Assembly: GCA_944327105.1 (NCBI GenBank)
Contig: CALVGN010000007.1
Location: 1-49,333, forward strand
Origin: an uncultured Erysipelotrichaceae bacterium
GTDB lineage: Bacteria; Bacillota_I; Bacilli_A; Erysipelotrichales; Erysipelotrichaceae
Reading direction: 5' to 3'
DNA length: 49,333 bases
In this document: positions 41,240-43,685 of the stretch, piece after piece
How the letters are laid out: each line of letters starts with the position of its first letter
Position numbering within the stretch: the stretch's first letter is position 1
Made by a program: the position numbers and the translations under genes
Notes under the pieces: model-generated
Database searches by the model: none
The model's input: the letters and a program-made list of their open reading frames with translations, nothing else
Told to the model about the DNA's origin: nothing

Positions 41240-41268
41240 TGAATGGTTTGATCATATTCATTCGTATT
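41240..41268 (+). promoter_or_regulatory. Candidate ECF-sigma promoter of the His/Cys-rich operon
   Basis: TGAATG (41240-41245), 17 nt, CGTATT (41263-41268). This resembles the SigW-class pattern TGAAAC-N16/17-CGTA. It lies ~50 nt before the operon that itself encodes an ECF sigma factor, so autoregulation is likely. Inference from consensus only. Confidence 0.5.
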
Positions 41269-41318
41269 AATGATGAAAGCAGGGTAAATGCTTGGTTGAA
41301 TCATACGGAGGAATGAAT

Positions 41319-41648
41319 ATGAAAAAGAGTATGAAGTTATTTGCTGGATTGGCATTGTGTGCATTGGTCGTATCATCGGTAAATGTGAATGCCGGGTACA
41401 ATGGCAAAGGATGCCGCAATTATTGCGGCAACAGTTGCTTCCATGATGGTTATGCCCATCATTGCAATTATTATGTGGATGAAAACAAAGATGGGATCTG
41501 TGATCATTGCTATCGGATCAATAATGATGTAACCACAGATAATGGGGTTACGACACCGCTGGTCAATACCACGAATAATAATGGTAATACCAATGGATAT
41601 CATGGTCATCACCATGGATATCATCATGGCAATCACCATTGTCATTAA
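41319..41648 (+). CDS. Secreted His/Cys-rich protein, probable metal binder
   Basis: The 109-residue protein has a Sec signal peptide (1-25, cleavage after VNA; LFAGLALCALVVSS core). A Cys/His cluster follows (C32, C36, C40, H42, H47, H48, C49), then YVDENKDGICDHC (C61, C64), like the D-x-D/N-x-D-G calcium-loop repeats of secreted proteins. It ends in a tail dense in His (GYHGHHHGYHHGNHHCH, 93-109). The composition points to binding of Zn, Ni, Cu or a similar ion outside the cell. ATG 41319 follows CGGAGGA by 7 nt. The ECF sigma gene starts 23 nt after its stop, and the anti-sigma protein has a similar His-rich end, which links the three. Confidence 0.85.
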   Translation: MKKSMKLFAGLALCALVVSSVNVNAGYNGKGCRNYCGNSCFHDGYAHHCNYYVDENKDGICDHCYRINNDVTTDNGVTTPLVNTTNNNGNTNGYHGHHHGYHHGNHHCH

Positions 41649-41671
41649 TGGTTGAACCATAAGGGGATAAC

Positions 41672-42163
41672 ATGCGCAGTGAATCGGATGTGGCACGTGT
41701 CATCGACACCTATGCTGATACCATCAAACGGATCTGCATGGTGTACTTGAAAAACACCGCGGAAACGGAAGACATCTTCCAAACGGTGTTTTTCAAGTAC
41801 GCCACATCCACCATAGAATTTGATAATGATGATCATCTGAAAGCATGGCTGATCAAAATCACGGTCAATCAATGCAAGGATACCTTGAAAAGTTTCTTTC
41901 GCAGCAAAAGGATAGATCTGGATGATGGGATCGAACCAGGCAGTGATGATCCACCGGATTATGGATTTTTATATGATGCATTGAAAAAACTGCCATCCAA
42001 TTCCCGGATGGTACTCTACCTTGAATATTATGAAGGATACAATGCCAAAGAAATTGGTTCCATCATGCATAAAAATGTCAATACCATCTACACCTGGATT
42101 AAAAGAGCCAAAGATCAATTGAAAACGATACTGAAGGAGGAAGGTTATGAAGCAAATGTTTGA
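41672..42163 (+). CDS. ECF-type RNA polymerase sigma factor
   Basis: The 163-residue protein has region 2 (about 5-75: ARVIDTYADTIKRICMVYLKNTAETEDIFQTVFFKY ... LKAWLIKITVNQCKDTLKSFF) and region 4 (about 105-160: LKKLPSNSRMVLYLEYYEGYNAKEIGSIMHKNVNTIYTWIKRAKDQLKTIL). No region 3 is present, as in ECF (group IV) sigmas. AAGGGG lies before the ATG. The stop overlaps the anti-sigma gene by 17 nt. It should direct transcription in response to an envelope signal, probably including its own operon. Confidence 0.94.
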   Translation: MRSESDVARVIDTYADTIKRICMVYLKNTAETEDIFQTVFFKYATSTIEFDNDDHLKAWLIKITVNQCKDTLKSFFRSKRIDLDDGIEPGSDDPPDYGFLYDALKKLPSNSRMVLYLEYYEGYNAKEIGSIMHKNVNTIYTWIKRAKDQLKTILKEEGYEANV

Positions 42164-42872
42164 AAATACCTTTTCTTCGATGCATGCATCGTATGATCTG
42201 GTGGCAAAAACCAAGTCCAGTGTGATGCAACGAATGGAAAAACCACAAAGAAAGTCGTTTGGTTTAACCAAATTGATGATGGGTTTGACCATCATGATGG
42301 TATTGATTGGTGGGGGTTATTGGCTTTATTTCATCCCGGTGGTTACCATCTCGGTGGATATCAATCCCTCTATCGAATTATCGATCAACCGATTGGATCG
42401 GGTGATCGATGTCAAAGCTTATAATTCCGATGGTCAAACCATTATTGATACCCTGGATATCCAGTATCAATCGTATCCGGATGCATTGAATACATTGATG
42501 GATGATCCAACCATTGCCTCCTTGTTATCCAATGATGGGATCGCCAATATCACTGTGGTTGGAAATGACAGTGACCATTGTTTGAAAATGGTCGAAACCA
42601 TCAATACCACTGTCCAGTGTGAAGGAAAGATGCAATGTCATCACGAAGATCAACAAGAACTGCAGGGTGCCCATGATTGTGGCATGTCGTATGGCCGCTA
42701 TGCCATGTATCAGTTTTTATTGGAATATTATCCTAATCTGACGATTGAAGAAGTCAATGCCATGAGCATGCGTCAAATCCGGGATATGTTACAAGATGAA
42801 GGTGTGGATATGGATATCAGCGGTTATGGTCATGGTTATAACCATGGTCATCATGGCGATGGTCATGAATAA
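42147..42872 (+). CDS. RsgI-like membrane anti-sigma factor with His-rich extracellular end
   Basis: The 241-residue protein has a short cytosolic N-terminal part (1-41) and one membrane helix (about 42-63: LMMGLTIMMVLIGGGYWLYFI). An extracellular RsgI-like middle domain begins VVTISVDINPSIELSINRLDRVIDVKAYNSDGQTI. Beyond it comes a Cys/His segment (VQCEGKMQCHHEDQQELQGAHDCG) and a terminal GYGHGYNHGHHGDGHE. Usual RsgI sensors carry carbohydrate-binding domains, so a His/Cys-rich end is a different sensor type, probably for metal. GGAGGAAGG precedes the ATG. Coupled to the ECF sigma gene. Confidence 0.88.
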   Translation: MKQMFENTFSSMHASYDLVAKTKSSVMQRMEKPQRKSFGLTKLMMGLTIMMVLIGGGYWLYFIPVVTISVDINPSIELSINRLDRVIDVKAYNSDGQTIIDTLDIQYQSYPDALNTLMDDPTIASLLSNDGIANITVVGNDSDHCLKMVETINTTVQCEGKMQCHHEDQQELQGAHDCGMSYGRYAMYQFLLEYYPNLTIEEVNAMSMRQIRDMLQDEGVDMDISGYGHGYNHGHHGDGHE

Positions 42873-42908
42873 AACACAAGGACCCGTCAATTGACGGGTC
42901 CTTGTGTT
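42873..42908. terminator. Bidirectional terminator, perfect 36-nt palindrome
   Basis: AACACAAGGACCCGTCAA and its exact complement meet without a loop spacer; the hairpin ends the sigma/anti-sigma operon and the convergent minus-strand gene. A motif copy (TGGTTCAACCA, 42910-42920) lies directly beside it. Confidence 0.85.
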
Positions 42909-42929
42909 ATGGTTCAACCATATATTGAT

Positions 42930-43685
42930 TTATTCAGATTCGATGTATTCCACATCATAGCAGGGTGCACTGACCACCTGGATTTCAAAATGATCATACG
43001 GGATAGCATCATAATTCTCATCAAAGGGTGGCATCACCGTATCCGTTTCACTGGCCTTGGCATACAAATCAAAGAAATAAGCTGGCCGTATGCCAACGAT
43101 CGTTTCATTTTCATCATAGAAAATCAAATTGGCATATACACTGGAAGGTTCATAATCACTCGTATTGGTGGCGGTGACCGGAATATCCCCATATTCATCG
43201 ACTTCGTGGGTCTCAAAGGTGATGTATTGGGCCAAGGAGACACTGGTTGCTGCCTCACAATCGAGATACACACTGACTTCATCCGGTGTATAACCTTCCA
43301 GATACGGAAGGACATAGACGGTTTTGTTACTGTCTAATGCATCCAGATAATCATAATCATCATCCGTGACGATCCCGTTTTCATCCACGACTTCGATTTC
43401 GATGGTCACATCCACACTGATACTGTTGTGATTGGTAATGGATACTACCAGATCATGATTCATGGTTTCAAACACATCGTATTCGATGTTGTCCATCAAG
43501 GTTTGTTTGGAATAGGTCGGGGGTTCGCTAATGTAAATCACGCCAGGTTCACGATAGATCGGGGAAGGATAATCCGGATCATTGGAAACAGAAGGATGGC
43601 TAGATATGATCTGCATCGCAAAATGGGCCACTAGGGCAACGATGGCGAACGCAGCGACAACATAATAAGCAATGCGTTTATTCAT
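42930..43685 (-). CDS. Membrane-anchored protein of unknown function
   Basis: The 251-residue protein has one N-terminal hydrophobic segment (about 6-27: AYYVVAAFAIVALVAHFAMQII) without a lipobox. An acidic, beta-rich extracellular part has two similar modules: VFETMNHDLVVSITNHNSISVDVTIEIEVVDENGIV and DIPVTATNTSDYEPSSVYANLIFYDENETIVG. Both look like immunoglobulin-type domains such as those in DUF5067 or FxLYD proteins. AGGAG precedes the ATG. Role unknown. Convergent with the sigma operon and divergent from pyrG. Confidence 0.75.
   Translation of the reverse strand: MNKRIAYYVVAAFAIVALVAHFAMQIISSHPSVSNDPDYPSPIYREPGVIYISEPPTYSKQTLMDNIEYDVFETMNHDLVVSITNHNSISVDVTIEIEVVDENGIVTDDDYDYLDALDSNKTVYVLPYLEGYTPDEVSVYLDCEAATSVSLAQYITFETHEVDEYGDIPVTATNTSDYEPSSVYANLIFYDENETIVGIRPAYFFDLYAKASETDTVMPPFDENYDAIPYDHFEIQVVSAPCYDVEYIESE

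Follow-up and report, generated by a model that had tools for sequence, protein, structure and literature searches.

This locus raises the question of what a membrane-bound anti-sigma factor, its sigma factor and a small secreted protein rich in His and Cys respond to and produce together. The window, that is the whole stretch of DNA analysed (49,333 nucleotides), comes from an uncultured Erysipelotrichaceae bacterium with a 1.61-Mb draft genome that is 97% complete (assembly GCA_944327105.1). Positions 41240-42872 are one likely transcription unit with a promoter, the secreted gene, an ECF sigma gene, an anti-sigma gene and a terminator; the compact operon proposed by an earlier sequence-only reading is present, with all three genes and the promoter in their places. 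We read it as a self-contained, single-output ECF/SEAL switch whose main product is a secreted protein of metal-binding type, with the same metal probably seen by the tail of the anti-sigma factor, and we put the probability of this reading at about 0.5. It is backed at the sequence level by the order of the genes, their promoter, the fold and cleavage motif of the anti-sigma domain, a regulon of one site and the co-variation described below; we infer that the domain is cut, the sigma factor released and metal bound, and likewise what the signal is and that the output feeds back.

The operon begins with a plus-strand promoter, TGAATG-N17-CGTATT at 41240-41268, or TGAATGGTTT-N13-CGTATTA when read as -35 and -10 elements to 41269 with the final A. 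It had been picked out just upstream of the genes before, and it behaves as an autoregulatory ECF promoter, with fixed spacing in relatives. A GGAGG sequence (41307-41311, plus strand) lies ahead of the ATG of the secreted gene at 41319, the sigma and anti-sigma genes overlap by 17 bp, and a terminator hairpin with a 16-pair stem (42873..42908) is common to the operon and a convergent gene. This neighbour (42930-43685, minus strand) encodes a protein of 251 aa that is hydrophobic near its N-terminus and matches an FxLYD domain below threshold, and the gene neighbourhoods of 97 loci gave no conserved link between it and the module. The window also abounds in an interrupted palindrome: TGGT-N3-ACCA occurs 87 times and the form with one more spacer nucleotide, TGGT-N4-ACCA, 34 times in its 49 kb, against 0-5 for other spacings, with examples at 41649-41659 and 42910-42920. 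The exact form TGGTTSAACCA occurs at 296 places in the 1.61-Mb host genome, compared with 0-8 in 57 other genera of the family and none in a reversed control. It resembles the cyanobacterial HIP1 element, and its candidate causes are a methylation or restriction site, an uptake sequence, or another process.

The three genes travel together well beyond this genome. A search of 196 genomes from the family found sixteen further loci with an anti-sigma match at E<=5e-29, and 12 of them hold the secreted, sigma and anti-sigma genes in order; in one genome (G167) the sigma and anti-sigma genes lie together and the secreted gene lies elsewhere. At three loci of genus g48 (L004, L009 and L010) the sigma gene has gone from the operon, and the secreted and anti-sigma genes still sit together behind the promoter. 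A closely related sigma gene lies elsewhere in two of these genomes (G110 and G145), and none close was found in the third, which is 80% complete. The same loss, with the same elements retained, is seen at L088 and L092. A scan of 84,980 species genomes returned 462 relatives of the anti-sigma factor, of which the best 80 belong to Lachnospiraceae, Oscillospiraceae, Ruminococcaceae and Erysipelotrichaceae. Among these 80, the 74 loci with >950 bp upstream could be tested; the sigma gene is present in 72 and a secreted gene with the repeat unit in 67, figures that do not describe all 462 relatives because the best 80 were picked by similarity to the window anti-sigma factor. Some of the remaining loci without a scored sigma or secreted gene are divergent or masked. 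The three-gene arrangement, which the sequence-only reading had proposed to look for in related genomes, therefore recurs in many genera of at least four families. No fourth conserved gene accompanies it: apart from antisense readings of the three genes, the most frequent other families are found at no more than 7 of 97 loci, and these neighbourhoods contain no recurring metal transporter or other metal gene.

The sigma factor (163 aa; 41672..42163, plus strand) matches Sigma70_r2 (E=5e-10) and Sigma70_r4_2 (E=2e-11) above the Pfam cut-off, consists of regions 2 and 4 only, and falls within the about 160-200 residues of ECF (group IV) factors, so its first assignment as an ECF factor holds. 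Relatives in the same module are 43-52% identical, and the protein may belong to an existing numbered ECF group. Its only Cys residues are C22 and C68, and it ends after region 4.

Its regulon appears to be narrow. Nearly every relative has the element TGAATGGATT-N13-CGTATTA ahead of the secreted gene, at a fixed distance; the strict pattern was found in 59 of 84 loci, where shuffled sequences would give 0.16, and near variants account for most of the others. In the host genome the site is unique at up to one mismatch, so that the suggested genome-wide search for further promoters of this kind returned the module's own and no other; three sites have two mismatches, one of which, on contig C26, lies inside a surface-protein gene. 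Twenty whole genomes from other genera and families gave 19 sites within the module's contig range, so that 19 of the 20 have the element at the operon, plus two extra one-mismatch matches, equal to the reversed control. All eight exact matches in the family genomes are at the module, and further one-mismatch matches in relatives in most cases do not greatly exceed the reversed control. One of those retrieved is real, the unlinked secreted gene of G167, which starts 22 bp after a promoter copy of its own. Because the promoter is near-invariant, limited to the module apart from chance-level matches, and also present before this unlinked gene, the sigma factor seems to serve essentially its own operon alone, with the secreted protein acting as effector; weaker sites that escape the pattern may exist.

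The secreted protein (109 aa; 41319..41648, plus strand) was delimited from its sequence and its relatives, and neither Pfam nor NCBIfam holds a model that covers the window protein or its relatives above cut-off. A predicted signal peptide (residues 1-25, 41319..41393) runs from MKK through a hydrophobic stretch to VNVNA-G and forms a single helix in a structure model that is otherwise disordered (mean pLDDT 52 for the protein, too low for interpretation). The mature part contains 13 His and 7 Cys in 84 residues, a composition beyond chance (binomial P=8e-11 versus the window background) that confirms the earlier description of a secreted His/Cys-rich protein. On the plus strand follow a Cys cluster, CRNYCGNSC (residues 32-40, 41412..41438), a calcium-type loop, DENKDGICDHC (residues 54-64, 41478..41510), and a His-rich C-terminus, YHGHHHGYHHGNHHCH (residues 94-109, 41598..41645), whose His content co-varies with that of the anti-sigma tail in relatives. 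The loop had been overlooked, and it is the best-conserved part of the family. What the secreted proteins have in common is the loop [YF]-x-Dx[DN]xDG[IV]CD in 1-7 copies, represented in the window protein by a single Dx[DN]xDGICD unit with the core DENKDG, and not the His tail. Its D, [DN], D-or-N and G positions are kept across 191 aligned units, for which the unit pattern itself selects, and CxxC or CxH often flank the loops. Many relatives have DADGDGICDxC, which we take to be close to the thrombospondin type 3 repeat.

Composition varies around this core. The secreted proteins of L013-L015, L018, L022 and L023 have no loop and are His/Cys-rich instead; the L018 homologue (645-968) carries two exact CX2CX4HX4C zinc-knuckle-like strings and a His tail without an Asp loop, and has no Pfam match. 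The secreted proteins of L003, L008 and L019 have few His, and across the family loop number is weakly anti-correlated with His content (rho -0.33). Matches in Pfam, NCBIfam or PDB to Myticin, fatty acid desaturase, zinc ribbons, EF-hand and the adenylate kinase lid were all below cut-off and were dismissed as chance; the EF-hand and zinc-ribbon matches recur weakly at sub-threshold level. The secreted protein itself, used as a query, found almost no matches in the family genomes owing to rapid divergence, and its relatives were located through the neighbouring genes. Given its Cys clusters, its His tail and a Dx[DN]xDG loop of the calcium type, the protein most likely binds a divalent metal outside the cell. 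Since Dx[DN]xDG loops abound and His is scarce in the secreted proteins of many relatives, calcium would be a candidate ligand at least as likely as Zn, Cu or Ni.

The anti-sigma factor (241 aa; 42147..42872, plus strand) is of the SEAL (RsgI_M) type (RsgI_M E=5e-24), in agreement with its first description as RsgI-like. All Foldseek matches of its model at E<0.001 are solved RsgI periplasmic domains, and the SEAL domain of Bacillus subtilis RsgI (8t9n) is a close structural match. The cytoplasmic part (residues 1-39, 42147..42263) has two predicted helices and presumably binds the sigma factor; it has no Cys, and Pfam returned no RsgI_N match at E<=1. A transmembrane helix (residues 40-63, 42264..42335; model helix 38-62 and hydrophobicity) leads to the SEAL domain (residues 67-189, 42345..42713), near whose start lies N73-P74 (42363..42368), invariant in 20 relatives. 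An Asn-Pro autocleavage site in RsgI was reportedly described by Chen et al. 2023, and we take N73-P74 to be this site. Most solved RsgI chains start, at their residue 1, on the equivalent of P74, and the domain probably cuts itself at N73-P74. The Cys/His patch C158..C164HH..AH176DC178 on the SEAL domain (42618..42701) had been singled out as a C-x5-C-H-H ... H-D-C motif. These residues exist; C158 and C178 occur in the window protein only, and C164 (about 12 of 20 relatives) and H176 (14 of 20), counted by eye in the alignment, are part of the RsgI domain itself. Beyond the SEAL domain the anti-sigma factors have about 25-90 disordered residues and no carbohydrate-binding module. In the window protein they end in a His/Gly tail, GYGHGYNHGHHGDGHE (residues 226-241, 42822..42869; pLDDT about 40), and 5 of the last 24 residues are His (P=3e-4). 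The tails are of low complexity across loci, with 24% Gly and about 10% each of Ser, His and Asn, and are His-rich in 67 of 88 loci.

The two outside parts are linked by the joint evolution of their His content. We compared the His fraction of the last 60 secreted residues with that of the anti-sigma tail in 87 loci and obtained a rho of 0.62, with a GC-corrected partial rho of 0.56. Phylogenetically independent contrasts, computed on a tree built from the anti-sigma bodies, gave r 0.50-0.51 (sign-flip p<=0.0001), so that the correlation holds up after correction for both GC content and ancestry. His ranks first among the 20 residues. Cys contrasts also correlate (r 0.33, p 0.0005), Gly and Asn do so more weakly (p about 0.03), and Lys, Glu and Tyr show no co-variation. 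The secreted His fraction is unrelated to that of the sigma factor (r=0.00) or of the cytoplasmic part of the anti-sigma factor (r=0.07), and the Cys contrast against the sigma factor is r=0.03. The coupling links the portions that lie outside the cell and concerns above all residues that can ligand metal. The earlier view that the outside end of the anti-sigma factor mirrors the secreted His tail is thus upheld for His and Cys content, which co-vary after phylogenetic correction, and not for the exact tail residues, which are not conserved among relatives. Since the His/Cys-rich parts persist in character across genera and co-vary, their absence from relatives, named beforehand as an outcome that would speak against a metal sensor, is not observed. 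Because the His and Cys contents evolve together, the secreted protein and the anti-sigma tail probably encounter one metal in common, or are brought together by it; co-variation is no proof of contact, as common exposure to one metal or pH could give the same sign.

In the mechanism that we propose, the anti-sigma factor would hold the ECF sigma factor at the membrane through its short cytoplasmic helical segment, and the SEAL domain, probably self-cut at N73-P74, would stay assembled until an outside event pulls it apart. An extracellular divalent-metal condition may act on the SEAL domain and the tail, whereupon a site-2 protease would cut within the membrane and free the sigma factor. The host genome encodes one M50 site-2 protease, and in the RsgIs of Clostridium thermocellum autocleavage and separation of the first strand are followed by RseP and then ClpXP (PMC12203970). 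The freed sigma factor would transcribe its own operon from the single TGAATGG...CGTATTA site; because it uses this one site, the secreted protein would be its main product. The secreted protein might then buffer the metal, or feed back on the anti-sigma tail, turning the system off and restoring the resting state. A more specific version, in which the SEAL anti-sigma factor is gated by an extracellular divalent metal and a secreted Ca2+ or transition-metal protein is both the sole output and the feedback ligand, meeting the His tail via metal in a closed single-operon loop across gut Firmicutes, is offered tentatively.

Several points count against a metal reading, namely the neighbourhoods without a recurring metal gene, the disorder predicted for the secreted protein (Dx[DN]xDG motifs are usually found within folded regions; PMC3123361), the relatives with few His and the weak co-variation of Gly and Asn. 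The main alternative is a cell-wall or envelope-integrity switch, in which the disordered tail spans the wall, the secreted protein is wall-associated with a structural or protective role, and His and Cys are incidental to a low-complexity spacer or adjust it to pH. The low-complexity, disordered tail and the lack of a binding module on the anti-sigma factor agree with such a switch, as does the match to the SEAL domain of B. subtilis RsgI, a protein that acts in cell-wall homeostasis (PMC7478892). A wall-spanning tail has likewise been proposed for B. subtilis RsgI. However, the co-variation of His and Cys with the secreted protein is the strongest of the 20 residues and is absent from the cytoplasmic parts, and cell-wall genes were found neither under this promoter nor as shared neighbours of the module. 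We regard an envelope switch as possible but doubtful.

The other explanations fare worse. The RsgI-type domain, the Dx[DN]xDG loops known from dockerins and a weak, sub-threshold Dockerin_1 match in one relative would be expected of a polysaccharide sensor like the cellulosome RsgIs with a dockerin-like secreted protein, but such a sensor is very improbable given the missing carbohydrate-binding module, the short disordered stretch after the SEAL domain, the absence of any glycosidase with the promoter, and a sigma factor that is not SigI. Small size, secretion, richness in Cys and His and fast evolution could also mark an antimicrobial or signalling peptide, with the sigma pair switching production and immunity. 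No processing, export or immunity gene recurs, though, and the repeat number varies from 1 to 7 while the Asp loop is strictly kept, which fits a binding function better, so we give this idea little weight. That there is no special module at all, merely an ordinary ECF pair next to an unrelated His-rich protein, might be suspected from the poor conservation of the secreted protein and the near-empty direct search in the family; it is contradicted by the unit-bearing secreted gene found at the same place in most testable loci and by a promoter that precedes this gene even when unlinked, and we consider it the least credible of all.

Sigma factors usually steer many genes. Here, one sigma factor seems to be kept across several bacterial families for one small secreted protein, which makes that protein a strong candidate for an important role at the surface of gut bacteria, and the co-variation is a concrete hint that one metal concerns both this protein and the sensor tail. 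If true, SEAL-domain signalling would reach beyond SigI to true ECF factors and beyond glycans to ions, and a function would be given to a protein family that lacks annotation although many common genera of the gut have it. No description of the motif or the module was found in the searchable open-access literature, and we judge the module to be a widespread variant of ECF/anti-sigma signalling that is apparently undescribed there.

Among known systems, the SigI-RsgI pairs of B. subtilis and C. thermocellum (RsgI1-9) share the extracytoplasmic RsgI/SEAL fold, the Asn-Pro site, the single transmembrane helix, the operon with the sigma gene and autoregulation (PMC12203970). SigI, however, lacks region 4 (PMC10575876), which the present sigma factor has, whereas RsgI_N and a carbohydrate-binding module are absent here and a secreted gene heads the operon. 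With region 4 present and RsgI_N absent, the module is not a SigI-RsgI system, and the earlier comparison with polysaccharide-reading RsgIs is apt for the extracytoplasmic domain and not for the rest. The host has a separate SigI-like/RsgI pair on contig C31 (L111, 841-3840, minus strand), whose sigma factor matches region 2 only, below the Pfam cut-off, and whose anti-sigma factor has a weak, sub-threshold RsgI_N match; after it comes a lipoprotein-like protein with RsgI_M and PepSY domains and no sigma-binding part.

The SigW-RsiW and SigV-RsiV systems resemble the module in ECF architecture, the TGAA/CGTA promoter and presumed regulated intramembrane proteolysis, and differ in having RsiW- or RsiV-type anti-sigma factors in place of an RsgI/SEAL domain, as well as in the apparently single target operon here. 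Metal-controlled ECF activity would be a possible likeness to CorE/CorE2 and CnrYXH. CorE, however, senses metal by a Cys-rich C-terminal extension that the present sigma factor does not have, and the operon has no CnrX-like gene. ZAS anti-sigma factors carry HX3CX2C in a cytoplasmic part, which in the window protein has no Cys in residues 1-39; with HX3CX2C and the Cys-rich extension both missing, the pair belongs to neither the ZAS nor the CorE type. The Dx[DN]xDG core of the secreted family is shared with the calcium loops of thrombospondin type 3 repeats, dockerins, EF-hands and Excalibur. The Excalibur loop is DxDxDGxxCE, whereas the secreted family has Cys at position 8 followed by Asp and no Pfam match above cut-off. 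A system of similar logic, and a precedent for ECF control that responds to calcium and acid, is the Caulobacter CaBP-SigV pair, in which Ca2+ limitation and acid induce an ECF sigma factor together with an exported EF-hand protein (PMC13171946). That pair is proteobacterial, with true EF-hands and independent promoters rather than an operon, and belongs to a different family, for which we claim no homology; common to both is an exported protein of the Dx[DN]xDG type tied to an ECF sigma factor.
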